From a virus: DNA of 31,550 bases. Location: positions 1 to 31,550 of IMG/VR virus record IMGVR_UViG_3300023110_000121; one strand, given 5' to 3'. Below are positions 1-17,285 of this stretch, in pieces (position 1 is the first letter of the stretch; each line of letters starts with the position of its first letter). Both the position numbers and the translations under genes were made by a program. The notes beneath the pieces were generated by a model, which had not been told where the DNA came from, searched no databases, and saw only the letters and a program-made list of their open reading frames with translations.

Positions 1-2901
1 ACTTTCCCAAGGTGCAGCAACTAGAGCATAATTACCATCACCACTTATATCTAAATCATATCCAAATCTATCGTTAGTTGCTGCATCAGATGCTGTTAAC
101 TTTTGTTGTTGTGAACTACTTGCCCAGTTTGCAATTCCTTCATCAGAATCTGCTACAACATCACCTTGACCAGAAATTGATATTTTTGTAAATGATGGAA
201 CAGGTGTAACTTGTCTTGCTCGTACATAGTCTGAATCAATGAGCGCGATTGTTGTTGCAGAATCGTTTCCACCACCACTTGAAGTCTGTCTTGCTTGAAC
301 ATAAGCTGAATCAATTAAAGCAATTGCTGCAGAAGAATCCAGATCTGATTTTGCATTAATTAACCCAACAAGCGTTGAATAAGCAGAATCATCATCATTC
401 AATGCTGCAGCAATTTCATTAAGTGTATCTAATGTTCCAGGTGCTCCATCAATTAAATTATTAATTTGTGCTGTTACAAAAGCAGAATCGGCAAAGTCCG
501 CATTTGTGTATGTAGTCTGTCTTGCCTGTACATAAGAAGAATCTACAAGTGCAGTTACTCCGGCAGAATCCAAGCCTGAACTACTTGCCGCAATAGTAAC
601 TGTGTCGGTTGTAGCATTAGTTGTGATAGTTATGTTTGAACCAGCTTCTAGTGTGAGTCTATCGCTGAGAGATGCTCCTGTTGCTGCAGTGTATACATAT
701 ACAGCACCAGCTGTTGATGACTGTTCATGAGCACCAACAGCTAAATAAGCTGCATCTTTTGTAACTGCAACAGATTGATTTTTACTTGCAAATCTGTTAT
801 TTTGACTTGAAGTTGTATCACTGCTAGTTACTGTTGATTCGAGAGCCCATGTGCCTCCAGTGTTTTTCCAAATTTGAACTTCACCTTCAGTTGTAGTAGC
901 TGCATCTTGTCTTGAAACACCTATGTAAACTCGAGTTCCATCTCCACTTAAATTTAATGCATGTCCAAAGAAATCACCAGCAGCTTGAGTTGCAGAATAT
1001 AACCTTTGTTGTTGACTCCAAGTTGAACCTGATCTTGTAAAGATATAAACATTTCCTGCTTTAGTTTCTGAACTTTCTCCATCTGCTCCTGGATCTGATA
1101 CTGCAGCAACAGTACCATCTGCATTTATACTAACTGCATAACCGTATGAATCATTTTGTGATGAAGCTGAATTGCTTGGTGTAAGTTCTGATTCGCGTGC
1201 CCATCCGCCGCTGTTGACCCAAACCCAAGCCGATTTATCAGTATAAGCTCCAAAAATAATTCTGTCTTTATCTTCAGAAGCTAATTCGTTACTCCATCCT
1301 ATCTTAGCATCAGTAGGAAAATCACTAGTGCTTTCTTCAATAGTTTCTGCTCTTGTCCAAGTAGAACCAGATCTAGTGAAAATTTCTACAGTACCCATTC
1401 TTCTAGTAGTGCCATTAGCAGATCTTCCCTCTTGATGACCTACTGTTATCATATTTCCGTCTTCTGATATATCTACAGAAATACCAAAATAACCTCCAGA
1501 AGAAGACACACTAGTATCAGGTGATAAAGTAGCTTGAAGCGACCATGTAGTACTAGATCTCGTATAAACATAAACTCTTCCATTAGTATTAGAATTTCTC
1601 GCTGCAACTGCGGCTGTATCACCATCAGCGTCTATGGCTACAGCCCATCCGTAGTTTAAATACGCTACAACATCAGCACCTGGTGGATCTAATCTTTGTT
1701 GTACTGACCAAGTACTTCCATTATAATAATGAATAAACGCTCTACCAGCTTGTGTAGCACCCGGGCCAGTATTATAGTGAGCGCCAGCTACAACATAAAG
1801 ACCGTCGTCAGAAATATCTGTACTCCAACCCATGTGTTGGGCAGACACACTATCATTAGGTTCTAAATCTCCAGTTTCAGTAGAAGTAGACCAATTCGCT
1901 CCACCTTCGCTATTATCGGCTACGAGATCATCTTGACCGCTAACTGATACAATAGTGAAAGCTGAAACAGGATCAACTTGTCTTGCTTGTACATAATCAG
2001 AATCAATTAAAGCAATCGTGGCTGCTGAATCATTTCCACCACCACCTGAAGTCTGTCTTGCTTGTACATATGAAGAATCTATAAGAGCAATTGCTGCAGA
2101 AGAATCCAGATCTGATTTTGCATTAATTAAACCGACAAGGGTTGAATAAGCAGAATCATCGTCGTTTAACGCAGCTGCAATTTCGTTAAGGGTGTTTAAT
2201 GTACCAGGCGCGCCGTCAATCAAGCTATTAATTTCAGATGTTACAAACGCTGAATCAGCAAAGTCTGCATTTGTATACTTAATTTGTCTTGCTTGAACAT
2301 AAGAAGAATCGATAAGAGCTGTTGTTGTTGCAGAATCTAATCCGCCTCCACCACCTGATGTTTGTCTAGCTTGTACGTATGAACTATCGACAGTAGCTTC
2401 AATTCTAGCATCTGCTCGAGCATTTGTAAAATATAAGTTAGAACCTTCTGATATGTTATCAGTGGTTCTAGTTGCTAATCTAACATCAAAATCAGAATCA
2501 GATCTTGTAGTTGTATAATATAAATTATTTCCTTCTGCTAGGTCAGAGGTTGTATTAGCAGCTAGAGAAATATTAATTACTGTATCAGAAGAATCTGTTG
2601 CTTTAAATGTTCCACCATCATTACGAAGTATTAAGTTATCACCCAAATAAATCGAATTACCACTTAAGTATAAATCTCTAAATTTTTTGGAACTATCACC
2701 TAAGTCATAGGTACTATCGGTTGCTGGAACTATATGACCTGTTACACTTCCTAGTGCTTCTGTAACAATGTCCTTTCCACCGGCGGATGTGCCGTCGCCT
2801 ATGAATAATTTGTTTGTATCAGTTACAAATACCGGTTCACCCGCTAAAGGTGTAATGGTACCTCTATCTGAATCTAATCCTCGTCTAAATTGTAATGCCA
2901 T
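1..2901 (-). CDS. Giant tail fibre/adhesin with Mtd-like N-terminus and FG-GAP beta-propeller (C-terminus beyond window)
   Basis: The frame is open from an ATG at 2901 to the left edge, giving 967 residues with no stop, so the 3' end is missing. AGAGGA about 12 bases upstream serves as ribosome binding site. Residues 1-45 (MALQFRRG, then GEPVFVTDTNKLFIGDG) resemble the N-terminal domain of phage major tropism determinant (Mtd) and many fibre proteins. Residues about 57-88 form the fibre block 'P.TDSTYDLG..SKKFRDLYLSG'. Residues 115-165 hold two 'EG.NLYYT/FT' motifs. Seven copies of the DSAYVQARQ-type motif are present. Residues about 350-735 contain seven repeats of the type FG.sVdIs.DG...vvGA (near 355, 416, 471, 533, 585, 644 and 703), with VYVYTRS...W strands between them, as in FG-GAP_2 beta-propellers. 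After a duplicated linker a further repeat (FGYDLDISGDGNYALV) starts near residue 944. Probable role: receptor-binding fibre. The propeller call is from pattern recognition, not a database search. Confidence 0.85.
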   Translation of the reverse strand, partial: MALQFRRGLDSDRGTITPLAGEPVFVTDTNKLFIGDGTSAGGKDIVTEALGSVTGHIVPATDSTYDLGDSSKKFRDLYLSGNSIYLGDNLILRNDGGTFKATDSSDTVINISLAANTTSDLAEGNNLYYTTTRSDSDFDVRLATRTTDNISEGSNLYFTNARADARIEATVDSSYVQARQTSGGGGGLDSATTTALIDSSYVQARQIKYTNADFADSAFVTSEINSLIDGAPGTLNTLNEIAAALNDDDSAYSTLVGLINAKSDLDSSAAIALIDSSYVQARQTSGGGGNDSAATIALIDSDYVQARQVDPVSAFTIVSVSGQDDLVADNSEGGANWSTSTETGDLEPNDSVSAQHMGWSTDISDDGLYVVAGAHYNTGPGATQAGRAFIHYYNGSTWSVQQRLDPPGADVVAYLNYGWAVAIDADGDTAAVAARNSNTNGRVYVYTRSSTTWSLQATLSPDTSVSSSGGYFGISVDISEDGNMITVGHQEGRSANGTTRRMGTVEIFTRSGSTWTRAETIEESTSDFPTDAKIGWSNELASEDKDRIIFGAYTDKSAWVWVNSGGWARESELTPSNSASSQNDSYGYAVSINADGTVAAVSDPGADGESSETKAGNVYIFTRSGSTWSQQQRLYSATQAAGDFFGHALNLSGDGTRVYIGVSRQDAATTTEGEVQIWKNTGGTWALESTVTSSDTTSSQNNRFASKNQSVAVTKDAAYLAVGAHEQSSTAGAVYVYTAATGASLSDRLTLEAGSNITITTNATTDTVTIAASSSGLDSAGVTALVDSSYVQARQTTYTNADFADSAFVTAQINNLIDGAPGTLDTLNEIAAALNDDDSAYSTLVGLINAKSDLDSSAAIALIDSAYVQARQTSSGGGNDSATTIALIDSDYVRARQVTPVPSFTKISISGQGDVVADSDEGIANWASSSQQQKLTASDAATNDRFGYDLDISGDGNYALVAAPWES
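296..560 (-). repeat. Fibre linker module, copy A (duplicated at 2054-2316)
   Basis: Encodes DSSYVQARQ, then DFADSAFVTAQINNLIDGAP, a TLNEIAAALNDDDSAY segment and a second DSAYVQAR. A second copy lies upstream in the same gene and a diverged third in the 800-residue fibre (3968-4205). A 44-base stretch (320-363) is identical to 2087-2130. It probably forms a helical/coiled trimer segment between globular domains. Confidence 0.85.
680..1890 (-). repeat. Seven-repeat FG-GAP-like beta-propeller region inside the fibre gene
   Basis: Seven protein repeats spaced 52-62 residues apart share an aromatic-Gly start, a D/N-x-D-G or similar acidic loop and a hydrophobic strand ending near Gly-Ala. Examples are YGWAVAIDADGDTAAV, FGISVDISEDGNMITVG and FGHALNLSGDGTRVYIG. 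Intervening strands read VYVYTRSSTTW, VEIFTRSGSTW and VYIFTRSGSTW. Integrin-type propellers have seven blades with calcium-binding acidic loops; the count here matches. Repeats 4 and 7 have degenerate acidic loops. Confidence 0.75.
2054..2316 (-). repeat. Fibre linker module, copy B (duplicate of 296-560)
   Basis: Same module as 296-560, placed before the first propeller; copy A follows that propeller and precedes the next one. The DNA is near-identical in places (2087-2130 equals 320-363 exactly) and diverged elsewhere mainly at third codon positions, pointing to an internal duplication of linker plus following domain. Confidence 0.85.
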
Positions 2902-2931: not shown

Positions 2932-5329
2932 TTGTTCCATAATTAGATTTCAAACTTGCAGGAGATGTTAGTGTTCCATAGTTAACATTTATAGATGTTA
3001 AAAGCAATTCAACAATAGTAGTTGCATCAATGCCTCCATAATCTGCTCCTAATGTACTATTTATATATGCTTGATTAGCTGTATTGTTAATCAACTCAAT
3101 TCCAGTAGATGAATCTAATGTACTTGTTACAGTAATTGTTTTTGTGCTTCCTAGTCCGGACGCTGTTATAGCTGATCCAACAAAATTTAATGTGGATCCT
3201 GAAGTTTGAAGTGAATTACCTTCATCTTGTACAGTAACCCCTGTTTGTCTTTCTTGTACATATGCAGAATCAATTAAATTAGTAGCGCTAGTAGAATCAA
3301 ATGTACTATAATTAAATGCTGCTAATTCAGTCTCTGATACAAATGATTGTAATCTAGCTTCTAAAAATGCTGAGTCAACAATATCAGAAACACCAGCAGA
3401 ATCAACAGTTGCAACCACACCTATAACATTTACAACACCTGCACTGTCAAGTTCACCAATACTAATTGTTCGTGTTGCTGAATCTGCAGATAAAGCAAGA
3501 TTATCAATAAAGACCGTGCCGCCTGATAAATGTATATCTTTGAATTTTTTATCTGAAGTACCAAGGCTGAATGAACTATCAGTAGATGGTATAATATTAC
3601 CAGATACTATTAATGTGTTGTCACTTTCTCTAAGAGTATTAAACTTAGATTGTACATGACTACTATCTATTAAAGCAAGAGTTGCAGCAGAATCTACCCC
3701 AGATGGACTAGTTGTTTGTCTCGCTTGTACATATGCCGAATCTATTAACGATATTGCTTCATTCGAATCTAATCCGCTTCCATCACTTGAAATTTGTCTT
3801 GCTTGTACGTAAGCCGAATCAATTAAGGCAATGGTAGCAGCAGAATCAACACCGGTTGGATTGTTTATTTGTCTTGCTTGTATGTAAGCCGAGTCAACCT
3901 GAAAAGATATTGATGAATCTATCATCGCTTGCGTGGCTGACGAATCAGTACCTGCCACTGTTCTTGCTTGCACATAAGCAGAATCAATTAAAGCAATTGC
4001 ATCTGTAGAATCCAAATCTGATTTTGCGTTTATAAGTCCAATTAAAGTATTGTAAGCAGAATCATCATCATTTAATGCAGCCGCTATTTCATTAAGAGTA
4101 TCTAACGTGCCAGGTGCACCATCAATAAGATTGTTAATTTGTGTTGTAACAAAGGCAGAATCAGCAAAGTCTGCATTTGTATATTTTATTTGACGATTTT
4201 GTATATATGAAGAACCTACTATATTAGTAACGAAAGCTGAATCTCTTTGAAGATCAACCTGCCTTGCTTGTACATAAGCCGAATCTACAATGTCAACAAC
4301 GGCATTTGAATCAGTTATAGTTGTAGTTGTTTGTCTAGCTTGAACATATGCTGAATCAACTTGACTCACTATTCTTGCTTCGGTATAGTATTGATTACTA
4401 CCTTCAGTTAAATCTGAAGTTGTAAATCCAGTTAAGTTACGTGTACCAATTACAAGAGCATGCCCCATATACCCATGAGCTGAACACTGATAATGTAATA
4501 CTGGTGGTGTAGATTCTGTTATTTCAATTTCAGCGTATGTAGATGTAGTTGTTACATTAGTGGTATATTGTGTATTTCTTGCTGCGTCATAATAGAATCT
4601 AAATGGGTGACTAGACATATCACTTGAACTAAGAGTAAAACGATATGTTCTTCCTATTTGTAGTTGTACTATTGGAGATTGAGTTCCATCAATAACATAA
4701 CCGCTTCCGCTACCCGAACCATTGTAAACATGATCAGCTGTTTTTGAAGCAACTGTTACAGAAAAGTTTTTAGTAGTTGCATCATGTTTATTTCTTTCAA
4801 CTGCCGTATTTGCAGAATCTTTTGCTAATATATAATCACTATCAAAATTATCTGCAGTGTATACTGATTCTACATCAAAACTAAATTGACCAGTATTAGA
4901 ATCATATGTTAAATCACCACCTGCAGAAAAGTGTGATCTTACTTCAGACGCACTTGGACCAGTATACGTTAGTACACCAGTTGTTGAATTATAAGTTAAT
5001 GATCCATCACCACCAGTATCAGTAACACTTATTGCATTTTTAGCGTCACTGTCAGCGCGTGCTGAAGTGTAATAAAGATTGGTGCCTTCTGTAATATTTG
5101 ATGTGCTACCAACTCTGGCTTCAATATATGCGGAATCGATAATGGAAAAGGTTGCAGTGGAATCAACACCTATTGCTCGAGCATTGATGCTGCCAATTTG
5201 ATTACTAGAATTTTTGAAATATAATATACCATCTGCATAGTTAATGGCTAATTCGCCATAATCAAGATCATTTGTAGCTGGTATACGTCCAGCAATACTG
5301 GACTTTTTTAGCTTAATGCTAGTAGACAT
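2927..5329 (-). CDS. Tail fibre protein with a cupredoxin-like domain (800 aa)
   Basis: The ATG at 5329 has AAGGAA five bases or so upstream. Residues 1-50 (IKLKKSS, IPATNDLDYGELAINYADG) are the conserved N-terminal attachment-type segment of T4-like marine phage fibres. Residues 77-150 ([20 protein letters not shown] onward) are homologous to a segment of the neighbouring 892-residue fibre. Residues about 187-296 look like a cupredoxin fold: SHPFRF (His241), then YAEIEIT and YQCSAHGYMGHALVI (Cys282, His285, Met288). About eleven DSAYVQARQ-type motifs follow, between residues 65 and 720, plus the DGAPGTLDTLNEIAAALNDD linker near 410-440. Near 610-640 sits an 'IPSTDSSFSLG...KFKDIHLSGGT' block shared with other fibres here. 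Likely a trimeric fibre or adhesin; whether the cupredoxin domain binds copper is unknown. Confidence 0.85.
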   Translation of the reverse strand: MSTSIKLKKSSIAGRIPATNDLDYGELAINYADGILYFKNSSNQIGSINARAIGVDSTATFSIIDSAYIEARVGSTSNITEGTNLYYTSARADSDAKNAISVTDTGGDGSLTYNSTTGVLTYTGPSASEVRSHFSAGGDLTYDSNTGQFSFDVESVYTADNFDSDYILAKDSANTAVERNKHDATTKNFSVTVASKTADHVYNGSGSGSGYVIDGTQSPIVQLQIGRTYRFTLSSSDMSSHPFRFYYDAARNTQYTTNVTTTSTYAEIEITESTPPVLHYQCSAHGYMGHALVIGTRNLTGFTTSDLTEGSNQYYTEARIVSQVDSAYVQARQTTTTITDSNAVVDIVDSAYVQARQVDLQRDSAFVTNIVGSSYIQNRQIKYTNADFADSAFVTTQINNLIDGAPGTLDTLNEIAAALNDDDSAYNTLIGLINAKSDLDSTDAIALIDSAYVQARTVAGTDSSATQAMIDSSISFQVDSAYIQARQINNPTGVDSAATIALIDSAYVQARQISSDGSGLDSNEAISLIDSAYVQARQTTSPSGVDSAATLALIDSSHVQSKFNTLRESDNTLIVSGNIIPSTDSSFSLGTSDKKFKDIHLSGGTVFIDNLALSADSATRTISIGELDSAGVVNVIGVVATVDSAGVSDIVDSAFLEARLQSFVSETELAAFNYSTFDSTSATNLIDSAYVQERQTGVTVQDEGNSLQTSGSTLNFVGSAITASGLGSTKTITVTSTLDSSTGIELINNTANQAYINSTLGADYGGIDATTIVELLLTSINVNYGTLTSPASLKSNYGTI
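3058..3065 (-). promoter_or_regulatory. Possible intragenic late promoter
   Basis: An exact TATAAATA followed by G on the minus strand, inside the last part of the 800-residue fibre gene and about 155 bases upstream of the next start codon. It also encodes YINS in frame, so it may be chance; the better-placed copy at 2924-2931 makes it redundant. Confidence 0.3.
3968..4205 (-). repeat. Fibre linker module, diverged third copy
   Basis: Encodes the same ordered elements as 296-560 and 2054-2316: DSAFVTTQINNLIDGAPGTL, TLNEIAAALNDDDSAY, LINAKSDLDS and a DSAYVQAR motif. DNA identity is visible but lower than between the other two copies. Confidence 0.8.
4442..4771 (-). other. Cupredoxin-like domain within the 800-aa fibre
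   Basis: Residues 187-296 contain the ligand pattern of a type 1 copper site: His241 in SSHPFRF and Cys282/His285/Met288 in CSAHGYMG, on strands VQLQIGRTYRFTL, YAEIEIT and HALVIG. Plastocyanin uses C-x2-H-x4-M; here it is C-x2-H-x2-M, so the Met may not be placed identically. Domains ending 'C..H..M.G' are known in phage and bacterial surface proteins. Confidence 0.65.
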
Positions 5330-5358
5330 TCCGATTCCTTAAAAAAGGTTTTGTTTTA

Positions 5359-5384
5359 AGTCAAGAGTTAAAAAACTCTTGACT
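5359..5384 (-). terminator. Perfect 11-bp hairpin between two fibre genes
   Basis: An inverted repeat AGTCAAGAGTT with a four-base loop lies between the end of the 892-residue gene (5390) and the start of the 800-residue gene (5329). It is not followed by a clean U-run on either strand, so a factor-independent terminator is uncertain. It could instead stabilise or delimit mRNA ends. It directly abuts and partly overlaps the late promoter at 5384-5391. Confidence 0.45.
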
Positions 5385-5391
5385 ATTTATT
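5384..5391 (-). promoter_or_regulatory. Near-consensus late promoter for the 800-aa fibre gene
   Basis: Minus-strand AATAAATA followed by G, one mismatch from the T4 late core TATAAATA, 54 bases upstream of the ATG at 5329. It overlaps the stop codon of the preceding gene, in the same arrangement as 2924-2931 and 27082-27089. Confidence 0.55.
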
Positions 5392-8068
5392 AATAAGTTC
5401 CACCGTCAAGGGTTGTAACTGTTACCGCTCCTGCTGTTACTGTAAATTGGTCTGAATCAAATGATGCCACACCCTTTGTAGTTACAGTGGCATTTCTACC
5501 AGTTACTACAAGATTACCACTTGCAATAGTTGTTTGAATACCTTGGTCAAAATCACCATAGATATTAAAAGATTCACCGATAGTTGCAGCAATTCCTGTT
5601 CCTTGGCCATTTACATCATCACCACTATAAAGAGTAATATCATTTGCTGAAATTGCGCCAGAAGCATCTGAGAAGTGTGTTGAATTAAATGTTGCAACAC
5701 CTTTTGTTGATCCATCAGCAACTGCATTAGCAGCAGTAATTGTTACTGTTGTGCCGGTTGCACTTGTTGAAATACCTTGTGCACTGGCACCAGTGATTGT
5801 AAGTGTTTCGCCAAGAGTAGCGGCCGCGCTACCAGATCCGCCAGCAAGAGTAATGTCGTTTGTAGAAACTGCACCAGATGATACCGTAAAGTTTGTTGAA
5901 CTGAATGATGCGACACCTTTATTAGATGTTGTAGCATCTTCAGCAGCAACTGTAATAATACCAGCGCCTTCAGTGATATCAATACCTTCACCTGCTGTAA
6001 GTATTTGTCCTAAATCTGAATCAACTCTTGCAGTTGTATAGTAAAGATTTGTTCCTTCACTAAGATCACTCGTTGAATGATTTGATATATCACTTACTGT
6101 ACCAGTTATATTACCTGATACGTTACCGGTAAGAGTACCGACTCTTAAATCAGCGTATGTAAACCCTGTTCCACTGATATCAACTACGTTTGTAGCACTA
6201 TCAAGTGTTCCACTATCGTTATATAAACCTGTGAAAAGTTTATATTGACCATCTGACGCATCTCTAAAAAGACCTGTGCGTTCTATACGTGTTTGTGCAG
6301 TATCATAATACTTACCAATAAAACCAATATCTAATGCATCAGCTGTAGTATTTGAATCTGCTAAATTAAATAAAGGATCGTTAGTTGTTACTGTAGCTGA
6401 GTTAATTGTGGTTGTTGTGCCATGAACTGTAAGGTCACCATCAATAATAGCGTTTCCATCAACTTGAAGATCATTAAATGTAACGTCTGAAGTAGTTGCA
6501 ACCGCTTGACCTATAGCAACTTCGCCGTTTGTTATTGTTACGCCAGTTCCGCCTGAAAAGTGAGCTCTTGTTTCGGCTGCACTTGGACCGGTGATTGAAA
6601 TAACACCAGTTGATGCTGTATATGATGCTGCGCCATCACCACCAGTAAATGTTAAAGATATAGCATTCTTTGCATCACTATCTGCTCGAGCAGTAGTGTA
6701 ATAAAGATTTGTAGAACCTTCAGTAATATCATCGGTATCAATTGAACCGCTACCACCAAGAGATATTGCTGTTCCATTAATTGTTATTGAAGAATTTGCA
6801 AGTTCTGAATTGCTGATCTCGCCTGTTGCAAGTGTTACAGTTTTACCAGAAAGATCAAGAGTACCTGCTAATTCATCAGCATTAACACCACCATTTTTAA
6901 TAGTAACTGCACCAGAACTAACTGAAAAGTTATCGCTACTAAATGATGCGATACCTTTATTACTTGTTGTAGCGTCTTCACCTGCGATAGTAACAGTTCC
7001 ACCAGATTGCGTAGCGTCAATTCCTTCGCCTGAAGTAAATGTTAATGTTCCACCAAGAGAGATGTCTGATGATGTTGATCCGTCAGTAACTGAAATTGTG
7101 CTATTAGCTAATTTACTATTTGCAATTGATCCTTCTAACTGTGTGTTTGAAACACCACCCGTTGCAATTGTTACAGCGCCGGATGTTACAGTAAAATCCG
7201 CAGAAGCAAATGATGCAACACCTTTATTAGTATCTGTAGCTTCTTCAGCTTCAATTGTAACTACATTATTAGTTACTGCTGTGTTAATACCTTCTCCACC
7301 AGTGAACGTAAGATCAGAATCTAGGAGGTTAACTGTATCTGTTCCTGTGTCACCTGCTACTGAAAGAGTAGTTGAGATGTTAACGTTAGCGGCAGCTGTT
7401 AAACGTCCTTGAGCATCAACAGTAAAAGTTGGTATTTGGGAAACTGAACCATATGAACCAGCAGTAACTGCAGTATTGTCTAAAGTGATAGTAAGCGCAT
7501 TATCAGCAGTTCTTGTGGTACTAATAGGCGCACCACCTAATATTGATAAAGTATCAGTATCTAGGTCAATAGTATCTGTTCCGGCAGAATCAGTTGTAAA
7601 TGTGAGTGTTGTAGCACCTGCAACACCATCAACATATTCTTTTGTAGCAAGAGAGTTAGTACCAAATCCAGATCGATCTTTATAGCCTGCTGGAACATTT
7701 ACTACTCCTGTGCCATTAGGCGAGATAGTAAGAGAACCATTGGAGTTAGTAGTCGATATCGTATTACCGTCTATAGTAACGTTATCAACATTTAATACAT
7801 CAATTTTACTTGATGCATCAACTATGATTGCACTTGATGCTGTGAGTGTTCCAGGTGTATGATCTAATTTGTCGGTAAAATAGACACCACCGACGACTTC
7901 GATTTCATTGGCATTACCTGCCGAATCTACGCCACCAGTACCGATATATAATCGATCACCGCCGTTTCCTTCCGTGCCTGCGAGATAGGAGTACGCTAAT
8001 TCACCTAGTTTTAAACTACTAGGAGCACCTCCGGTTCCCGATCTTTTGATCTTAATTATTGCTGCCAT
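5390..8068 (-). CDS. Long repetitive tail fibre protein (892 aa)
   Basis: The ATG at 8068 shares its A with the TAA of the 102-residue gene (TAATG), implying translational coupling. The N-terminus ([20 protein letters not shown], then GELAYSY) is the usual fibre-type start, followed by ATKEYVDG near 141-148. Five repeats of the type 'ATTSNKG(V/I)ASFSS..F.V.SGAV' occur near residues 280, 370, 716, 788 and 864. Residues 527-645 contain the widespread fibre block with [25 protein letters not shown] and [14 protein letters not shown]. Two 'EG.(T)[11 protein letters not shown]' motifs lie near 450 and 671. The C-terminus ends LDGGTY, echoing DGGFY at the end of the 102-residue protein. Likely an elongated trimeric beta-rich fibre. 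No chaperone or peptidase domain was recognised. Confidence 0.85.
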
Positions 8069-8376
8069 TAGTAAAAGCCCCCGTCTGAAGTAATATCCGC
8101 ACCCACTATTTCATTTCGAGCTTGGAATGTGTTAGTAGCTGAATCAAAAATCAAAAGTCCTTCTTCTTGAAGGGTGCTTAAATCTACATCACTTAAATCA
8201 CGAATTCTCAAAGTTCCAAAACTCAAAGAGCCACTACCATTTGTTTTAATAACCTCGTTGTTATTTCCGTCTGCTGTAGGATATTGCAAGCCTGAAGCCT
8301 TGAAAACTCCTCCGACTGTTGCGGAATCTGCTACTTCAAGACCAGACTTAACTACAAAATTTTGTTTAACAGCCAT
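8068..8376 (-). CDS. Small fibre-associated virion protein (102 aa)
   Basis: The ATG at 8376 has AGGAAT about seven bases upstream and a late promoter at 8407-8414. The N-terminus ([20 protein letters not shown]) and the middle ([11 protein letters not shown]) are of the type found in short virion proteins encoded beside fibre genes in marine T4-like phages. The protein ends SDGGFY, close to the DGGTY end of the 892-residue fibre whose start codon overlaps this stop. No specific function was recognised. It could be a fibre hinge, a tip attachment protein, or a cofactor of the downstream fibre. Confidence 0.75.
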
Positions 8377-8406
8377 GATCTATTCCTACAGTAAAATTAT
8401 TAATAC

Positions 8407-8414
8407 TATTTATA
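8407..8414 (-). promoter_or_regulatory. T4-type late promoter for the 102-aa and 892-aa genes
   Basis: Minus-strand TATAAATA followed by G, exact late-promoter core, in the 41-base gap upstream of the ATG at 8376. The two downstream genes are coupled by a TAATG overlap and should be co-transcribed. Confidence 0.8.
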
Positions 8415-8417
8415 ACA

Positions 8418-9269
8418 TTACGCATCTACACTGATCCTTTTTGCTTTAATACTCGTATTAGTGTATGATGGCGATAATGTAAATTTTACATCACCGCTTA
8501 CAATTGAAGCATCAAATGTACCTAGTGATGAATCAGTTTTAACTTCTGCGTATTCTGTTAAAAATACATTAGTTCCATTATGTGTTAAAAGAATTTCAGT
8601 AGAATGATACTTACTATCTGAATCATGCTCTAACTGAACTATATACTTACATGTTCTAAATTCCGAAGCTTGAAAAGTATCAACTATTTGTCCTGTGCCA
8701 GCTGAATCCAAATCATTATTAACTGCATTGTCTATATTATCAGCTCTGCTGCTTCCTATAGAGCCAGTGTACTTGGCACCAGTCACAAATATAACATTTG
8801 ATCCGTCCATTGCTGAAGGTAAATTTGTTCCAATAAAATGTAAAACACCAGATTGATAATCAAAAAACCATTCATCATTGTTACCACTACCGGCAGCAAA
8901 CAATTGTGTTCCTGTGCTAGTTGGATCTGAAGCACCAGTTGTATCTGCATACACAACAAGCTGATATGTTGATCCAAATTCAGGTGGAATCCAATCTGTA
9001 TGTCCAGTTTTCCATGTTCTATTTGCCGTAGCTGTAGTGTCTTCTGTTGTTTCTAAATTTGTATAAATGGTAACAACACCTGAACTTGATCCAGGTTTTG
9101 TTGAAGGAATAGATCCAGCTTGACTCCATATCTTGTCACCTCTTAGTAGAAGAGGACTAGCAATAGCTTCGTTTGTTGCACCTTTTACAGAATTAACATC
9201 TGTTTTAGTTGCGCCAAATCCAACTTTCTTAAAAAGATAATCAACTTTTTGAGTATCAGTAATAGCCAC
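8418..9269 (-). CDS. Virion structural protein (283 aa)
   Basis: The start is GTG at 9269 with AGGAG seven bases upstream; the nearby upstream ATG is followed at once by a stop and is excluded. The N-terminus, TDTQKVDYLFKKVGFG then NEAIASPLLLRGD, and the NRTWKTGHTDWIPPEFGSTY segment near residues 83-102 resemble a conserved virion protein of T4-like cyanophages and pelagiphages with no assigned role. No signal peptide or membrane segment is evident. It lies 9 bases after the 1038-residue gene and shares its promoter at 12812-12819. Placement among fibre genes suggests a fibre or baseplate-periphery part. Confidence 0.8.
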   Translation of the reverse strand: MAITDTQKVDYLFKKVGFGATKTDVNSVKGATNEAIASPLLLRGDKIWSQAGSIPSTKPGSSSGVVTIYTNLETTEDTTATANRTWKTGHTDWIPPEFGSTYQLVVYADTTGASDPTSTGTQLFAAGSGNNDEWFFDYQSGVLHFIGTNLPSAMDGSNVIFVTGAKYTGSIGSSRADNIDNAVNNDLDSAGTGQIVDTFQASEFRTCKYIVQLEHDSDSKYHSTEILLTHNGTNVFLTEYAEVKTDSSLGTFDASIVSGDVKFTLSPSYTNTSIKAKRISVDA

Positions 9270-9278
9270 TACATTCTC

Positions 9279-12200
9279 CTATGTAATACTCAAGCTAGTT
9301 ATGCTTTGCCCTGAAGATAAAGCAATTCTAACTAAAGCTACGTTATTAGTAGCATTTGTTAAACTTTCAGTTCCAAGAGTCATTGTAAAAGAACCACTGA
9401 GAGATGTGTTAGATGCAACAATATCGCTTCCTGTCGATGCACATCCGTTTGAACCATTACCACCATTTCCGGTATCGGCTCCTGGGACACCAGCACCTGC
9501 GTATTGTGTACTACAATCTAACCAACCGTTTGATGTTGATGTATCGTCAATAGTTGTGCCAGGTGCCGCAATAAAGAGTCCTGCAATTCCGGAAGATGTA
9601 ATATTGATGTTGAAATTTGATACTGCTGTTCTTCTAAAAGCAAATGTAAAATATTGTGTACCGGTATCACCGCTTCTGTTTGGTCCAGCTGGTAAAAATC
9701 CACTGCTATAATTTGTTACATCGTGTTTTAGTATACCAAGTCTAACTGTGGCTTCTTTTGTTCCAGCAACTCCTGGGTCTGCAGATTCTGAATAAAGACT
9801 ATTTGTATAAAAATTTGTAGAACTTGTATATGAAGGAGTATCGGCTGAATCACCGTTAAAATCAAAAATTCTAACTCCATCATCATCATATGTTCCACCT
9901 AAAGCATCTGCTACTGCAATTGCAATTTCACTAATTCCAGATTGTGAAGCTGTGTGCACTTGAATTTTTTCTGTTAAGTTACCAGAAGAACCTACACCAT
10001 TAGTGTTTCTTGCTCTAACACTTAATGCTTCAACTGTTCTTACGCTTGATGTTGTAATAGGTACTGTTAAATTTCCGATGGCATATGCTGAACTAACCCC
10101 AACGTCTGTAGTCGGTATTCCACCAGATAACATTGTTGACGCACCGTCAATATTTGCATATGTATAACTTTGAGTTGAAATTGCTGAGCTAGTTGTACTT
10201 TCATAATTTGTGCCGGATAATACCTCAACCACATTACTTACATCACTATATGTTTGTCCAGTTAAGTTGCTTATTTGTGTACCTGATAGAGTTAACGACG
10301 GTGAACCTGAATTGTAATAAGGAATTCCAGAAACATATCTAAAAGTGCCTGCAGCATTTTGTGCCAATGTACCTGTGGCAGAAATAGATGGAGTTGAAGT
10401 TATATCGTCTCTTACAAATTCTAATGTATTTGTTGCACTTCCACTATGATCCATTTTCCAACTGTTTACTCCAACTGAAGCAGCTTTGTTTATTTTTGCT
10501 TTATAGCCTTTATACAAATCAGGGTGATAAATTGAATTATTAAACGAAATGGTTGATCCAGAAGCGTTAAGAAGATTATAGTCTTGCTCATCCGTTATTT
10601 GGATAGCACTATTTGATCCAGTGTTATCAGCACTAGTGAGACTAATAGAGCCATCAGTTGAACCATTAATAATTGCGGATAATGTACCAGAATCTGCATT
10701 ATAAGCAAAGGTTGATAACGTGTTTGTAGATAATGTTGAAGATGACGTTGTCCTAGTTACAGTATCTCCAGCAGATAAACTTGAACCTCCAGATACGTTA
10801 TCTGTAAAGCCTGAAGTAAGTTTAGGACTTGTGCCTGATGAAGAAAATCCAAGTGATATAGTTTTAGTACTTAAAAGATTCGGTGCAGCAATATCTGGAT
10901 CATACACTTTTAAACTTAATGTGCCGTTAGTTGGAATAACTGAAGGGTCTGCAGTTGAATGACTATCTAGCGTAAGCGTCAATGTATCACGGCCTGTGCC
11001 AGTAGTTGTTCCGTCTGCCCATGTGTGGCTTAATCTGCTTCCTAATACTCCACCAGCAGCACTATCACTATCAATATCATCGTTTGTAGAACCATCTCCC
11101 CAATTCATCGTATATGACACGTCTGCCATTGTTGTATTAGTGGTATTATTTTTAAGATATAAACTATTTCCTTCTACGACATATAGATTATTACCACTTA
11201 ATGCGGTACCACCACTAGAATCTCTATATAAAGCAAATGCTACAGCTGGATCGGCTGTGTAAATAATAATATAATCGTCTCTAGTTTGAGAAGCTTCACT
11301 ACCGCTTCCAGCAGCTTGAGTATTAAAAGCTCTTACCTGTACAGTGTACGGTGATCCAGTATTTGATGTATAAGTATGAGATGGAGTGGTATCTGTTGTT
11401 GCGCTGTCTACACTGCCATCGCCCCAATATACATCATAACGATTAGGATTACCAACTGTTGTTAAAGTTAAAGTTACAGTAGTTCCTTCTCCGCCAGCTA
11501 AAGGTGAACCAGTAAAGCTTACACTTTGTACAAAATTGTCTTGTGCGATATTTTTAATAGCTTCATTTAATTGATCAATACCATCTGCAATCGTAGTCGT
11601 ATTATTTAAGGAAAGAAAGCCGTCTCCATAAGAACCATCTGTAGGTGCACCAATATTGGCATCAGCTACACGTGCTTGAACGTAAGCAGAATCAATAAGT
11701 TGTATTGCTTCGGCAGAATCTAGTTTAGAGTTGGCAAGATCTGTTAGTGTTGAAAATGCATTACTATCGTCATTCAACGCTGCGGCTAATTCGTTTAAAG
11801 TATTAAGTTGTTCAGGTGCAGCATCAATTAAAGCATTAATGGCAGAATCAATTTTAGGTTGAGTAATAGATATAATTTCAGCTGAATCTATATCTGTTGA
11901 AATTTCTTTTTGAGTTCCAGAAATAATATTTCCGTCATTATCAACTGAACTAATTGTTAATTTGCCAGCAGAATCTGTTATAGCAAGTGCACCTACAAAT
12001 AGCGTACCTCCAGAAAAATAACCATGTCTAAATCTATATTCATTTGATCCAAGATCTATTGTGCCATCTGAATCTGGTATAATACTATCAGTTACTTTAA
12101 CTGGCCCGAGTATTGATACACCCGATCCGCTATCTATAATATTTTCTAAATCTTGAGTTTCTACAAGAGCTAATACGTCTCCAGAATCAAGTATATTTGG

Positions 12201-12395
12201 AATGTTTGTAAAATTATTATAATCTAAATAGTAACCGCCAGATTCACCACCAAGAGTTCCAGCATTAAATCCTGTGGCGCTACTAACACGACGTACCGGT
12301 GTTCCCGTTACAATCTTTTTGACAATGGTTTGTGCTTCAGAAACCTTTAATTCGGCGTTCTTAGCGACCTTTACTAGGATTTTATCTGTGGCCAT
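9279..12395 (-). CDS. Fibre-like virion protein with two PKD domains (1038 aa)
   Basis: The N-terminus (residues 1-70: ILVKVAKNAELKVSEAQ, GGYYLDYNNFTNIP) is a fibre-type attachment region. It is followed by 'IIPDSDGTIDLGS...FSGGTLFVG' (105-135) and the linker TLNELAAALNDD with one DSAYVQAR motif (195-242). Residues about 295-500 hold two PKD-type beta-sandwich domains, each with WGDGS (YWGDGS 323-328, NWGDGS 431-436) and a downstream SHT(Y/W). The C-terminal 150 residues are Gly/Ser/Thr-rich, with GLFIAAPG, NGWLDCS and GVPGADTGNGGNGSNGC, a pattern also seen in marine T4-like phage structural proteins. PKD domains usually mediate carbohydrate or protein contacts, so a host-surface or capsid-surface role is plausible. 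The ribosome binding site is weak; the gene lies 9 bases after the 117-residue gene and is probably coupled to it. Confidence 0.85.
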   Translation of the reverse strand: MATDKILVKVAKNAELKVSEAQTIVKKIVTGTPVRRVSSATGFNAGTLGGESGGYYLDYNNFTNIPNILDSGDVLALVETQDLENIIDSGSGVSILGPVKVTDSIIPDSDGTIDLGSNEYRFRHGYFSGGTLFVGALAITDSAGKLTISSVDNDGNIISGTQKEISTDIDSAEIISITQPKIDSAINALIDAAPEQLNTLNELAAALNDDSNAFSTLTDLANSKLDSAEAIQLIDSAYVQARVADANIGAPTDGSYGDGFLSLNNTTTIADGIDQLNEAIKNIAQDNFVQSVSFTGSPLAGGEGTTVTLTLTTVGNPNRYDVYWGDGSVDSATTDTTPSHTYTSNTGSPYTVQVRAFNTQAAGSGSEASQTRDDYIIIYTADPAVAFALYRDSSGGTALSGNNLYVVEGNSLYLKNNTTNTTMADVSYTMNWGDGSTNDDIDSDSAAGGVLGSRLSHTWADGTTTGTGRDTLTLTLDSHSTADPSVIPTNGTLSLKVYDPDIAAPNLLSTKTISLGFSSSGTSPKLTSGFTDNVSGGSSLSAGDTVTRTTSSSTLSTNTLSTFAYNADSGTLSAIINGSTDGSISLTSADNTGSNSAIQITDEQDYNLLNASGSTISFNNSIYHPDLYKGYKAKINKAASVGVNSWKMDHSGSATNTLEFVRDDITSTPSISATGTLAQNAAGTFRYVSGIPYYNSGSPSLTLSGTQISNLTGQTYSDVSNVVEVLSGTNYESTTSSAISTQSYTYANIDGASTMLSGGIPTTDVGVSSAYAIGNLTVPITTSSVRTVEALSVRARNTNGVGSSGNLTEKIQVHTASQSGISEIAIAVADALGGTYDDDGVRIFDFNGDSADTPSYTSSTNFYTNSLYSESADPGVAGTKEATVRLGILKHDVTNYSSGFLPAGPNRSGDTGTQYFTFAFRRTAVSNFNINITSSGIAGLFIAAPGTTIDDTSTSNGWLDCSTQYAGAGVPGADTGNGGNGSNGCASTGSDIVASNTSLSGSFTMTLGTESLTNATNNVALVRIALSSGQSITSLSIT

Positions 12396-12404
12396 TTATA
12401 ATAC

Positions 12405-12758
12405 TCATTTTGTCACCGATGGAGTTACTTGAATTCTTCCTTCTAAAATTCTTTCGACAACAGTATTTGCATCACTATCGACAAAAGAAATTTCTACGTC
12501 ATAAACGTATCTTCCTGCTTTAAGAGCATCGGTTTGAGTATTATTTAATGATATTGTTACGACTCCATCGGTTGCGGGACTTGCTATGAGCGTAGTAAAG
12601 TCATGCGTATCAGCGCTATCGCTATTGTAATTCTTTTTCATCTTTGCAGCTACAGAATAATCTGTTAGATTCTTTGCCGCTCCAGTATTATCTGTGAGAT
12701 GAAGTTCAAATGCTACGTCAGCACCTTGATCGATGGTAAATTCTTCGTATTGGGCCAT
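12405..12758 (-). CDS. Small Ig-like virion protein (117 aa)
   Basis: The ATG at 12758 has GGAG about seven bases upstream. The sequence has the pattern of a small beta-sandwich family common next to tail-fibre genes: FTIDQGADVAFELHLTD, NLTDYSVAAKM, a GVVTISL strand, LKAGRYVYDVEI and RILEGRIQVTPSVT. It is the first gene of a unit with the 1038- and 283-residue genes under the late promoter at 12812-12819. The role is structural by context; no enzyme motif is present. Confidence 0.8.
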   Translation of the reverse strand: MAQYEEFTIDQGADVAFELHLTDNTGAAKNLTDYSVAAKMKKNYNSDSADTHDFTTLIASPATDGVVTISLNNTQTDALKAGRYVYDVEISFVDSDANTVVERILEGRIQVTPSVTK

Positions 12759-12782
12759 GAAATACTCCAGTTGATTTCTTTG

Positions 12783-12804
12783 TCGGACGCGCGCGCCCCT
12801 GCCG
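12783..12804 (-). other. GC-rich 5' leader element with a predicted small hairpin
   Basis: A nearly all G/C stretch in an otherwise AT-rich phage. On the minus strand it reads GGCAGGGGCGCGCGCGTCCG and can fold into a five-pair stem with a CGCG loop. It lies immediately downstream of the late promoter at 12812-12819, so it would form the first bases of that transcript. A role in mRNA stability or early elongation is inference. Confidence 0.5.
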
Positions 12805-12811
12805 TTTAATC

Positions 12812-12819
12812 TATTTATA
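12812..12819 (-). promoter_or_regulatory. T4-type late promoter for the 117/1038/283-aa fibre unit
   Basis: Exact TATAAATA followed by G on the minus strand, just after the stop of the 247-residue glycosyltransferase gene and 53 bases before the ATG at 12758. It separates the accessory cassette from the fibre genes transcriptionally. Confidence 0.8.
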
Positions 12820-12830
12820 CAAAAATAAAT

Positions 12831-13574
12831 TTACATCCAATACTTTTTTATCCATGAATCTTTATAATTTTCTATCATATTATTTGAGTTTGAAAAATGT
12901 ATCATTTTAATTGAATCTGAAAATTCATTGTCTATATAATATGGATCTTCATTATTAATTTCATTATGCCAATTACTTTGTATTTTTCTATATTCATCAG
13001 GCGAGTATTTTGCAAACCATTTCATTGGAAACCAATGCCTATTATTATCAATATGCATATCAATAAAATTTTGTTCTCCATTAACTGGACCTTCAGCTTG
13101 TCCGTTATTAATAAAATATTCCTGCCAATAGTCTGGCTTTTCTGTAAATATATCGTATAAATGCTGAGTATCTCCCATATTATACATTTGAAATCCACCG
13201 TTAATTTTACAAAAATTTCTTCTATTAGACCACCATCTTTCGAAACAACCAAATTGTTTCATAGATAATTTATGATTGAGGATATCATTCATATCATTAA
13301 TAATAATCCAATCAATATCTAAAATCAAACATGTTTCACCATTTTCAATATTTCCAAATCCGCTATTATGAAATTCTAATTTATGCCACTGTAACTTATA
13401 TTTTTCTACATCAACAATAGGAACAATAATTATATTTTCATTTAAATTTTTATCATCATCAGTGTAACAATAAAAATTAAAATCAATTGTACTATTCGCT
13501 TTCAATCCTTCATATAAATTATTTACATATCGATAGTTATACTTAGTTCCAACTTTTAAAGTTAGTATGTTCAT
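12831..13574 (-). CDS. Probable GT-A-type glycosyltransferase (247 aa)
   Basis: Residues 82-90 contain CLILDIDWI, a D-x-D motif (Asp86/Asp88) after a hydrophobic strand, as in metal-dependent nucleotide-sugar transferases. FYCYTDD near 34-40 and NGGFQMYN near 125-132 fit GT8-like or related folds. The N-terminal 60 residues closely parallel those of the plus-strand gene at 14816-15565 (shared FYCYTDD, N..L and NII), so the two are paralogues. The start overlaps the end of the PP-loop gene by four bases (ATGA). DNA is more AT-rich than the flanking structural genes. Acceptor and sugar cannot be told from sequence. Confidence 0.75.
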   Translation of the reverse strand: MNILTLKVGTKYNYRYVNNLYEGLKANSTIDFNFYCYTDDDKNLNENIIIVPIVDVEKYKLQWHKLEFHNSGFGNIENGETCLILDIDWIIINDMNDILNHKLSMKQFGCFERWWSNRRNFCKINGGFQMYNMGDTQHLYDIFTEKPDYWQEYFINNGQAEGPVNGEQNFIDMHIDNNRHWFPMKWFAKYSPDEYRKIQSNWHNEINNEDPYYIDNEFSDSIKMIHFSNSNNMIENYKDSWIKKYWM

Positions 13575-14239
13575 AAGGATTCACCGTCATAATGTCCAAA
13601 TGCCCAATATTTTTCATGGCACCACCAACAACTTTTACACGGTCCATTTGGTTCATCACCAATACAAGATACAGTATGTTGAAATATTTCTTTTAAACCT
13701 TTTTCTTCATACATGAGTCTCACCCATCTTTTATCATAAGAGCTTATTATATTAGAGTCTTCATACTTAATACCTTTATCATTTTTTTCACCTACATTAC
13801 GATTAGAGCTTCCGGGATCTTTGTATTTAAATGATTGATCTTGTGGTGATAGAGTACTTCCTGAAAATACCATATCATTGTCACACATACCTTCTTTCCT
13901 TAAAAGCGCGTACACAGGACGATGATATTTAGGTTTGTCTTCTCCAGCAAGCTTATTGTATGCAAATAAATAGAGATCGTTTATTTTTACAGTAGGGAAT
14001 TTATTTTTTATATATGAATATACTTTTTTAGCCGCATCGGGCGAATAAGCGTTCACTCTTCTCATATCCCAACCGTGAACAGGTGTTATTTGAAATTCTT
14101 GTATATTGTTTTCAATTACATATTCGCATATTAAATAAAAAACTAAAGTTGAATCTGTACCGCCTGATAAGTTTAATACTGCGTTTTTATAATTAAGCTC
14201 GATTAATCTTTTATGTAAATATTTTTCGTATTCTTCCAT
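13571..14239 (-). CDS. QueC-like PP-loop ATPase family protein (222 aa)
   Basis: The ATG at 14239 is chosen over the in-frame GTG one codon earlier because AAAGG lies upstream and its A is shared with the TGA of the preceding gene. Residues 22-31 (LNLSGGTDST) are the PP-loop that binds ATP pyrophosphate. The C-terminus carries Cys192, Cys201, Cys204 and Cys207 in a C-x8-C-x2-C-x2-C pattern (GPCKSCWWC), the spacing of the zinc site in QueC, 7-cyano-7-deazaguanine synthase, and the length also matches. The middle of the protein does not obviously match QueC, and no queD, queE or folE partner is in the window. A sugar amidotransferase-type or other PP-loop enzyme therefore remains possible given the glycosyltransferase neighbours. 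Confidence 0.75.
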   Translation of the reverse strand: MEEYEKYLHKRLIELNYKNAVLNLSGGTDSTLVFYLICEYVIENNIQEFQITPVHGWDMRRVNAYSPDAAKKVYSYIKNKFPTVKINDLYLFAYNKLAGEDKPKYHRPVYALLRKEGMCDNDMVFSGSTLSPQDQSFKYKDPGSSNRNVGEKNDKGIKYEDSNIISSYDKRWVRLMYEEKGLKEIFQHTVSCIGDEPNGPCKSCWWCHEKYWAFGHYDGESL

Positions 14240-14805
14240 CACACCTTTCCTATTATCATATATCTTGTATATTTTTCGAAATTAAGTTCTCCACTATAAT
14301 ATTCATCAATTACACCATATTGCTCTGCTAATTCATCACAGCTATCAACACAATTAACGTGATCTTTAATTTCTCTATAGTTATTACTTTGAAGAACAAC
14401 TGTTGTTCCTTTCTCTATCTTAAGAGGTTTCATATGTTCGCAAGACGTATTTATCACCATACCATCATATAAAAAATTATTACAGTTTATCTCGTCGACT
14501 TTAACTTTTTCTATGTCATTAAAAAATATATTCCTAGCTATATTTACAACCTCAGCATCTATGTCATGCAACAGTATTCTTTGCACTTTTGGATATATCT
14601 TTAAAAGTCTTGGAACTATAATATTACCAAACCAACTACCAGCAACATAAATTTTTTCTGGTAAAATGTTAATCTTCTCTAATTCAGCTGCTAACCAAGA
14701 TTTACATTTTATTTGCTTTTCATCGTAAGACTGAACTATATCTTTTGCTAAATGAGGATGTTTTTTAATAGCTCTTTGTGTTTTAGTGTCTATAAAAAAG
14801 TGCAT
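14239..14805 (-). CDS. SAM-dependent methyltransferase-fold protein (188 aa)
   Basis: Residues 51-62 (KIYVAGSWFGNI) followed by an acidic strand end (ILLHDIDAEVVNIA, 77-90) form a class I Rossmann methyltransferase pattern, though motif I is not the usual GxGxG. INTSCEHM at 118-125 occupies the motif IV position and is a signature of a small methyltransferase-like family in marine phages. The start has AGAGG about five bases upstream. It is transcribed divergently from the glycosyltransferase at 14816 with only ten bases between them, and its end is coupled to the PP-loop gene by TGATG. The substrate is unknown; the lack of a canonical glycine motif leaves catalysis unproven. Confidence 0.65.
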   Translation of the reverse strand: MHFFIDTKTQRAIKKHPHLAKDIVQSYDEKQIKCKSWLAAELEKINILPEKIYVAGSWFGNIIVPRLLKIYPKVQRILLHDIDAEVVNIARNIFFNDIEKVKVDEINCNNFLYDGMVINTSCEHMKPLKIEKGTTVVLQSNNYREIKDHVNCVDSCDELAEQYGVIDEYYSGELNFEKYTRYMIIGKV

Positions 14806-14810
14806 AAATA
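14791..14810 (+). promoter_or_regulatory. Candidate plus-strand late promoter(s) for the reversed glycosyltransferase
   Basis: TATAAAAA (14791-14798) and CATAAATA (14803-14810) each match the late core at seven of eight positions on the plus strand. With T4 late-promoter geometry the second would start transcription at or within a few bases of the ATG at 14816, predicting a leaderless message. The evidence is weak, but the gene is otherwise without a promoter. Confidence 0.3.
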
Positions 14811-14815
14811 CCTCT

Positions 14816-15565
14816 ATGATAAATGTAATTTGTGTGAAATGGGGTGATAAGTATAGTTATGAGAATGTCAATAGACTTCATACTATGGTTAAAAAATATT
14901 TGAATATACCGTTCACTTTCTATTGTTATACTGACGATCCTACTAATGTGGATGCCAACATTATTAAAATAAAATCAAATTATTTAGAAACTTATTGGAA
15001 TAAATTGGCTATGTTTCAAAATAATTTTGTACCAACTGGTCCTTGTCTTTACTTTGACTTAGATATCGTAATACAAAATCCCATTGATACTCTATTAGAC
15101 TATTTATCTGACAATTTAACTATGATAAAATGCCATTGGAAAGGAAACATTGTTACAGATGGAAGTTCGCGCCGTGAAAAAGATAGATGGGACATGAACG
15201 TTAATTCCAGTGTGTTACTTTGGAAATCTAATAGTCTTACTAAAATATGGAAACATTTTTATGAAAACGCTGATTATTTCATGGTTCAATACAAAGGAAT
15301 AGACAGATTTTTATTTCATGAAAAATTTGAATTAAATTATTTTCCAGAAGGATTATTCTATTCTAGAATGAATGGAGAAAAAGAAGAAGATTATACGCAT
15401 GCTAAATTGTACGATGTGAATCTTTTTAAAAATATTGAAACAAGAGTAAGAATGAAAGATTTCAAAGAAATATATTTACATCATATACCTGAAAGAATGA
15501 TATGTCTCTTTAACGGGCCTACTGAAGATTGGACTTACGAAGGATTTGAAAACTATTGGTCTTGA
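14816..15565 (+). CDS. Probable GT-A-type glycosyltransferase on the opposite strand (249 aa)
   Basis: The ATG at 14816 is preferred; an in-frame GTG at 14786 would overlap the divergent methyltransferase gene and add residues not shared with the paralogue. Neither start has a Shine-Dalgarno sequence. Residues 76-84 (PCLYFDLDI) give the D-x-D metal/nucleotide-sugar motif (Asp81/Asp83). FTFYCYTDD (33-41) and the surrounding N-terminal region match the 247-residue gene at 12831. DMNVNSSVLLW further on resembles the acceptor-side strand of such enzymes. It is the only plus-strand gene seen. It is divergent from the methyltransferase gene and overlaps the oxygenase gene's end by 13 bases convergently. 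The acceptor is unknown. Confidence 0.75.
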   Translation: MINVICVKWGDKYSYENVNRLHTMVKKYLNIPFTFYCYTDDPTNVDANIIKIKSNYLETYWNKLAMFQNNFVPTGPCLYFDLDIVIQNPIDTLLDYLSDNLTMIKCHWKGNIVTDGSSRREKDRWDMNVNSSVLLWKSNSLTKIWKHFYENADYFMVQYKGIDRFLFHEKFELNYFPEGLFYSRMNGEKEEDYTHAKLYDVNLFKNIETRVRMKDFKEIYLHHIPERMICLFNGPTEDWTYEGFENYWS

Positions 15566-16167
15566 ATATCTTCAATCATCATTTCCCAAAAATTTTTGTC
15601 AGGTATAATAAATCCTAAAGTCAACCTAGGCTCATAAGCTCGGGCACAATGCCAATATATTTTATCTTTTTCTTTTAAATTTCCATAATAACCAACTTTA
15701 GCTGTCCACCCAGGTGTGTCATGCATTGTTATTGTTTTTAAAGTTATAGGATCTTTATATCTAAAATATCCATTTCCATTTTTAGTATATGAAAAAAGTA
15801 TGTTATATCCACTGGCATTATGATTATTATGCCACCCCATGTATCCTCCTTCAGGATAATACATTTTAACAGCACAATGTTTGGCACTTAATATATCATT
15901 AAAGTCTGAATCGACTTGTCTTATTCTTTCTCTTAAATTTAATGTTGTCGTGTGTGTATAAGCTATGTCTGTACCATAACTTACTTCTGGCCACCCAATA
16001 TGATTTTCTTGATCTATAGTTTTAAAATATTCTTCTTCAGTATAATAGTCATTTTTGTCTGCCTTTCCTTCCAATTTAAATACTGATTTATCTAAACTTT
16101 CGATCCATGTGGAGTAATCATTTAATAAATTAATTATTTCTTTATTTTGAATTTTAATATTAATCAT
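15553..16167 (-). CDS. 2OG-Fe(II) oxygenase-like protein (204 aa)
   Basis: Residues 103-125 (YYPEGGYMGWHNNHN then YNILFSY), GNGYFRY (131-137) and WHCARAYEPRLTLGF (172-186) follow the double-stranded beta-helix layout of 2-oxoglutarate/iron dioxygenases common in T4-like marine phages. Candidate ligands are His113, His173 and the 2OG-binding Arg181. The position of the usual Asp in HxD is Asn115, which is atypical. The start overlaps the upstream glycosyltransferase gene by eight bases, with GAGAG as a weak ribosome binding site. Plausible targets are a protein side chain, a sugar or a nucleobase; nothing in the sequence decides. Confidence 0.7.
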   Translation of the reverse strand: MINIKIQNKEIINLLNDYSTWIESLDKSVFKLEGKADKNDYYTEEEYFKTIDQENHIGWPEVSYGTDIAYTHTTTLNLRERIRQVDSDFNDILSAKHCAVKMYYPEGGYMGWHNNHNASGYNILFSYTKNGNGYFRYKDPITLKTITMHDTPGWTAKVGYYGNLKEKDKIYWHCARAYEPRLTLGFIIPDKNFWEMMIEDIQDQ

Positions 16168-16858: not shown

Positions 16859-17267
16859 TTTCAGATATAAGTAAAGCGGCAGTAAATGCTGTTACTTCCA
16901 TAATGCTTTTGGCTTTTCGTATACGGGATTTAAGTTTTCTATTTTTTGAATTTTTAATTTCTTCTATTTCAAAGGCTTCAAGTTTTGCACTAAATAATGC
17001 ATCACTTTTCATTCTTTCTATTTCATCTTTTTCAAATTCTACTTGTTTCTTACGTTTTTCAGATTCTTCAGCTTTATAGGTTTCTGTAATTTCGTCTATT
17101 TCTTCAATAGTAAATTTTTCAAATATTTCTTTCCAATCTGGATTACCTTCTTCAGTTTCTGTAATAGCAGCAGTTTGTATAGGTTTGCCTTCGCCGTAAT
17201 GAAACTCGCATATAACTTGTGTCTTAGTGTTATTTCCCCAATAGGGGTTTTTGATAGTTCTTTCCAT
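16848..17267 (-). CDS. Acidic, helix-rich protein of unknown function (139 aa)
   Basis: The ATG at 17267 is chosen because TTGGAG sits eight or so bases upstream; an alternative TTG four codons earlier would use the ribosome binding site itself as codons. After a short beta-like start (RTIKNPYWGNNTKTQVIC), residues 40-125 are dense in Glu and Lys with long helical stretches (IEEIDEITETYKAEESEKRK), suggesting a coiled coil. Short proteins with a '.NP.WG' start occur near fibre genes in marine phages, so a tail-associated or assembly role is possible. No family is recognised with confidence. Confidence 0.7.
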   Translation of the reverse strand: MERTIKNPYWGNNTKTQVICEFHYGEGKPIQTAAITETEEGNPDWKEIFEKFTIEEIDEITETYKAEESEKRKKQVEFEKDEIERMKSDALFSAKLEAFEIEEIKNSKNRKLKSRIRKAKSIMEVTAFTAALLISENDE

Positions 17268-17285
17268 AATAAACTCCAATAATAA

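Follow-up and report, generated by a model that had tools for sequence, protein, structure and literature searches.

Tandem FG-GAP propellers of predicted integrin-alpha lineage in the tail fibre of a probable T4-like myovirus

The tail fibre gene at one end of the DNA analysed here (the window, a whole IMG/VR record of 31,550 bases) encodes a predicted complete seven-bladed FG-GAP_2 propeller (propeller A) and, beyond a linker, the start of a second (propeller B). We favor, with a probability of roughly 0.65, the explanation that this is the tail fibre of a T4-like myovirus whose tandem, calcium-free propellers of integrin-alpha lineage serve as exchangeable receptor-binding heads. Receptor binding by the propellers is plausible in view of their apparent exchange, their pattern of variation, and the analogy with the receptor-binding protein of phage phi11. 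The features on which the argument draws are as follows.

1..2901, minus strand: tail fibre gene (open frame; Mtd_N and FG-GAP_2; PHROG tail fibre families)
2785..2892, minus strand: Mtd_N domain, residues 4-39 (PF18454, E 7.8e-10)
1957..2574, minus strand: linker modules before propeller A, residues 110-315 (tail fibre PHROGs; 282-300 nt repeats; 92% identity to the second linker over 96 aa)
679..1899, minus strand: propeller A, complete, seven blades, residues 335-741 (Pfam, blade model, AlphaFold, Foldseek, PDB profile search)
1711..1881, minus strand: blade unit 1 of propeller A (FG-GAP_2 match 1732-1881; blade model)
1546..1710, minus strand: blade unit 2 of propeller A (FG-GAP_2 match 1564-1710)
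1375..1545, minus strand: blade unit 3 of propeller A (FG-GAP_2 match 1429-1545)
1204..1374, minus strand: blade unit 4 of propeller A, divergent and missed by Pfam (blade model; four predicted strands)
1021..1203, minus strand: blade unit 5 of propeller A (FG-GAP_2 match 1039-1203)
850..1020, minus strand: blade unit 6 of propeller A (FG-GAP_2 match 871-1020)
682..849, minus strand: blade unit 7 of propeller A, probably completed by the N-terminal strand at 1864-1899 (FG-GAP_2 match 691-849; strand order)
217..504, minus strand: second linker, residues 800-895 (92% identity to residues 211-306; repeats)
1..216, minus strand: start of propeller B, cut by the contig end (FG-GAP_2 match 4-114, E 5.8e-13; 94% identity to the start of a propeller in the related locus L008)
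8418..9269, minus strand: fibre or connector gene with an uninterrupted gp9/10-C-like end (phrog_967, E 1.1e-11; alignment)

The fibre location of the propeller is well supported. Genes for a T4-like baseplate wedge (phrog_261, phrog_219, phrog_438) lie on the minus strand of the window and are followed by a cluster of tail fibre genes, the last of which runs from 2901 to 1. The contig end cuts this gene after 967 residues, and the fibre tip therefore lies outside the contig. Its N-terminus matches PF18454 (Mtd_N) with 39 bits against a cut-off of 26.3, and propeller A is flanked by repeated fibre linkers, so that the placement proposed in an initial annotation, between linker modules of an Mtd_N-type fibre, proved correct. 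The linker DNA repeats are 282-300 nt long and 78-82% identical, and one repeat family is also present in the next gene. The gp9/10-C-like domain type that ends gene 8418..9269 also ends the propeller fibres of two related loci, L008 and L009, in alignments. No match to PF00078 (reverse transcriptase, the sign of a DGR-diversified Mtd-type fibre) occurs in the window and ten related records, all of them fragments. Elsewhere in the fibre cluster, a 1038-aa gene (9279-12395) matches phrog_8578 across most of its length and PKD weakly, below the cut-off. Between fibre genes lies a block of small genes (12831-17279; about 29% GC versus 32-40% elsewhere), one of which has weak NAD-synthase/QueC-like matches and most of which have no Pfam match. 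Finally, a 337-aa protein (17286-18299) carries C-terminal repeated FFTG/NTF-like motifs and has no Pfam or PHROG match.

The FG-GAP_2 family (PF14312) matches the whole fibre protein with an E-value of 2.4e-35 and 120.9 bits, against a curated cut-off of 23, which places the repeats far beyond chance. Six of the seven matching stretches lie within 691-1881; the seventh (4-114) belongs to the second propeller. A blade model derived from the repeats of the window itself, and thus including repeats that it later found, detects seven consecutive blades at residues 341-744, spaced by about 57 aa, and an eighth at 929-966. AlphaFold, a test independent of the blade model, was run on propeller A as a monomer, together with nine homologous propellers as aligned input. 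For propeller A (mean pLDDT 78.6, pTM 0.83) it predicts 28 strands, or seven times four, between fibre residues 335 and 741. These are ordered as one strand (model residues 24-35), six four-strand blades, and three strands preceding the linker, an order in which blade seven would be completed by the first strand. Propellers are usually closed in this manner, by an N-terminal strand that completes the last blade. Closure of the ring is read here from the strand order and the fold matches rather than from inspected coordinates.

Both fold and sequence comparisons lead to integrins. In a Foldseek search of the PDB, integrin alphaX, alphaM, and alpha4 stand near the top, with E-values down to 3.1e-13, and WD40 and other propellers fall mostly below them; the seven-bladed fold is thus found at the level of prediction. 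A single-sequence search of the PDB with the propeller gave no match, but an HMM made from the alignment, searched against all PDB sequences, gave 14 matches, every one an integrin alpha chain (best 4.1e-12). As sequence profile and predicted fold both match integrins, the ring is thus of integrin-alpha lineage, and the predicted assignment of propeller A as a closed seven-bladed ring of that lineage is solid. The complete seven-bladed FG-GAP-type propeller claimed in the initial annotation is hence borne out by Pfam, by the AlphaFold model, by Foldseek, and by the PDB profile search. Its seven evenly spaced repeats with FG or YG starts are also present; the D-x-D-G-like loops it described are instead short S/D/N-x-D-G turns, distinct from the calcium motif.

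Integrin blades 5-7, and blade 4 as well in certain integrins, bind calcium through a DxDxDG-type loop (PMC3192720). This loop is absent from every blade in the window and from all 385 unique phage blades. The same pattern is present in 21 blades of three bacterial FG-GAP loci, which served as a positive control, so the motif test can fire. In alignments, the A-B loop is also several residues shorter in the phage propeller than in integrin. Calcium dependence through integrin-type sites, which had been proposed for the propeller, is therefore not supported, and we reject it on these motif counts; the conclusion applies to integrin-type sites, and metal sites of other kinds are possible. The strict Cage motif with proline has no match in the fibre, propeller A included, and the FG...AP pattern occurs in the fibre only in the first blade of propeller B.

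Comparison with related loci indicates that propellers and linkers have different histories. The linker between the propellers is 92% identical to the one preceding propeller A. The first 110 residues of the fibre are 91% identical to the fibre of L009, otherwise a close mosaic relative of the window, whereas propeller A is only 35% identical to the L009 propeller. Propeller B, conversely, shows 94% identity to L008 and 43% identity to propeller A over its first 72 residues. A further locus, L010, represents the same population as the window over 3891-14088. That linkers and propellers have different closest relatives points to module exchange, and heads swapped at homologous linkers would produce just such identities. 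The suggestion that the fibre is built from whole propellers thus stands insofar as more than one is present; the second is cut by the contig end, and only its start is seen.

Variation within the propellers is unevenly distributed. Among 211 pairs of homologous propellers, the fraction of substituted sites is 0.54 in the D-A loops and 0.60 in the B-C loops, as compared with 0.11 in the C-D loops, 0.35 in the A-B loops, and 0.22-0.34 in the strands; because the pairs are not independent, this contrast describes a pattern rather than testing for selection. One face of a propeller bears both the D-A and the B-C loops, and the variability of this face suggests that it is a putative binding face.

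Related propellers occur elsewhere among viruses. Viral contigs were scanned with single propellers as queries, since the alignment contains no conserved stretches for an alignment-based scan, and the open frames of the resulting loci were searched with a blade model. Clustering at 70% identity left 34 complete viral proteins with five or more blades, 27 of which have 7, 14, or 21. Counts of 5, 6, or 8 in the others may reflect weak blades that escaped detection, much as blade 4 of propeller A escapes Pfam. Bacterial and archaeal FG-GAP_2 relatives, too, mostly have 7, 14, or 21 blades. A single 1284-aa protein at L008:10111-13962 lacks Mtd_N and carries three consecutive propellers, with 21 blades altogether; L108 contains four propeller genes in a row. 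The domain is found in a Vibrio phage nt-1 protein annotated 'FG-GAP repeat protein', within a 21-kb virion structural gene of S-MbCM6, and in an annotated virion structural protein of S-TIM5. In S-SCSM2R it lies a short distance beyond genes labelled as L-shaped tail fibre, tail adaptor, and tail fibre rope proteins; BFVD contains many similar folds from giant viruses. These data show the integrin-type ring recurring as an exchangeable module of fibres across many viral contigs, and it is also present in proteins of some isolated cyanophages.

Two relatives suggest that propellers can also be nested. L112 (2-3871) has a 4+3-blade FG-GAP set within its gp9/10-C-like domain, and five lactonase-like repeats split that set in turn; in L008, L009, and window gene 8418-9269, the gp9/10-C-like domain is continuous. 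In L009, a seven-bladed 1+2+4 set is split by two five-repeat inserts, in a protein that also matches the lactonase family PF10282 (E 1.5e-11); in both loci, the sets of five repeats were counted by eye. The end of the L112 gene is supported by L114, a locus from another metagenome that matches it at 205 of 206 residues; the upstream junction is seen in one contig. For the nested part of L112, AlphaFold gave a poor model (pTM 0.45), which was not used. L112 shares no DNA overlap with the window, so we do not claim it as a continuation of the window fibre. We tentatively propose, at somewhat less than even odds, that calcium-free propellers of integrin lineage are a shared, exchangeable receptor-binding unit in this group of phages, both in tandem (7, 14, and 21 blades) and nested. 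If so, the fibre tip would enclose one propeller inside another, an architecture that the sequence supports and that would be new.

A model that accommodates these observations is as follows. A stalk of repeated linker modules would carry two or more FG-GAP_2 propellers one after another, each presumably a closed seven-bladed ring of integrin-alpha lineage without calcium sites, and the Mtd_N end would be attached to the virion. The fibre is probably a homotrimer, so that three copies would stand at every propeller position, as in the phi11 receptor-binding protein. The face bearing the long B-C and D-A loops would bind a host surface molecule, and the tight A-B and C-D turns would face away. 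Such a fibre would change its host range in two ways: whole propellers would be swapped at homologous linkers, and the B-C and D-A loops would vary.

Other roles for the propellers must be weighed against this model. In L008 and L009 a gp9/10-C-like domain stands beyond the propeller, which counts against the propeller as the tip, and propellers could be spacers or docking platforms within or between fibres, with another domain binding the receptor. Their fibre-internal position ahead of such an end in relatives, the several genes or copies per genome (7, 14, or 21 blades; the four consecutive genes of L108), and the presence of the domain in the giant structural protein of S-MbCM6 would all accord with such a role. 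The exchange of whole propellers and the variation of one face, however, are easier to reconcile with a changing partner than with a constant one, and we regard a spacer role as unlikely. Multiple copies per fibre and per genome would likewise suit propellers that attach the virion to mucus, particles, or polysaccharide generally rather than to a specific receptor, and related propeller groups are often carbohydrate binders (PMC9218822). Although sequence cannot separate general adhesion from receptor binding, the large divergence of heads between close relatives favors specificity, which makes general attachment rather improbable.

Some phage tail propellers are enzymes, and the propeller might degrade a surface polysaccharide, as propeller-type endosialidases do; enzyme propellers do appear in the Foldseek results, with weaker scores. 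The nearest structures, however, are integrins, which are non-enzymes, and only FG-GAP_2 and Mtd_N exceed Pfam cut-offs in the fibre. Lacking family support in Pfam, the enzyme was rejected as a candidate and is highly improbable. We therefore retain exchangeable receptor-binding heads as the preferred explanation.

By both sequence and fold, the nearest solved relative of the phage propeller is the N-terminal propeller of integrin alpha (FG-GAP, PF01839; PMC3192720), with which it shares seven blades and FG and GA motifs; it differs in lacking the calcium loop, in the lack of a strict Cage motif in propeller A, and in its phage fibre setting. Bacterial and archaeal FG-GAP_2 proteins belong to the same Pfam family (PF14312) and share its multiples of seven blades. 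The proteins of nt-1, S-MbCM6, S-TIM5, and S-SCSM2R contain the same domain in phages and are partly annotated as virion structural, but their identity is low (27-43%), and no fibre combining Mtd_N with tandem propellers was seen in them. The prasinovirus MntV1 has FG-GAP genes with a proposed attachment role and has been called possibly the first virus confirmed with FG-GAP repeats (PMC11467894), a claim contradicted by phage records with the domain; like the window fibre it places FG-GAP domains in a virus, but it is a eukaryotic giant virus. The literature search returned no text joining FG-GAP, phage, and tail fibre, which its limits explain as well as novelty does.

Few phage receptor-binding proteins are known to contain propellers. 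The receptor-binding protein of Staphylococcus phage phi11 bears propeller heads on a trimeric stalk at the tail (PMC4901313), an arrangement resembling that proposed for the window fibre; the phi11 propeller, in contrast, has five blades, and its nearest relative by that paper's DALI comparison is glutamine cyclotransferase, not integrin (PMC4901313). PhiKZ gp131, as cited there, has a C-terminal seven-bladed propeller at a myophage baseplate, with an unproven role, and resembles propeller A in blade number and setting. If the propellers of the window fibre do bind receptors, integrin-type rings would serve adhesion in bacterial viruses as well, and the swapping of entire rings would offer a testable way for host range to change.
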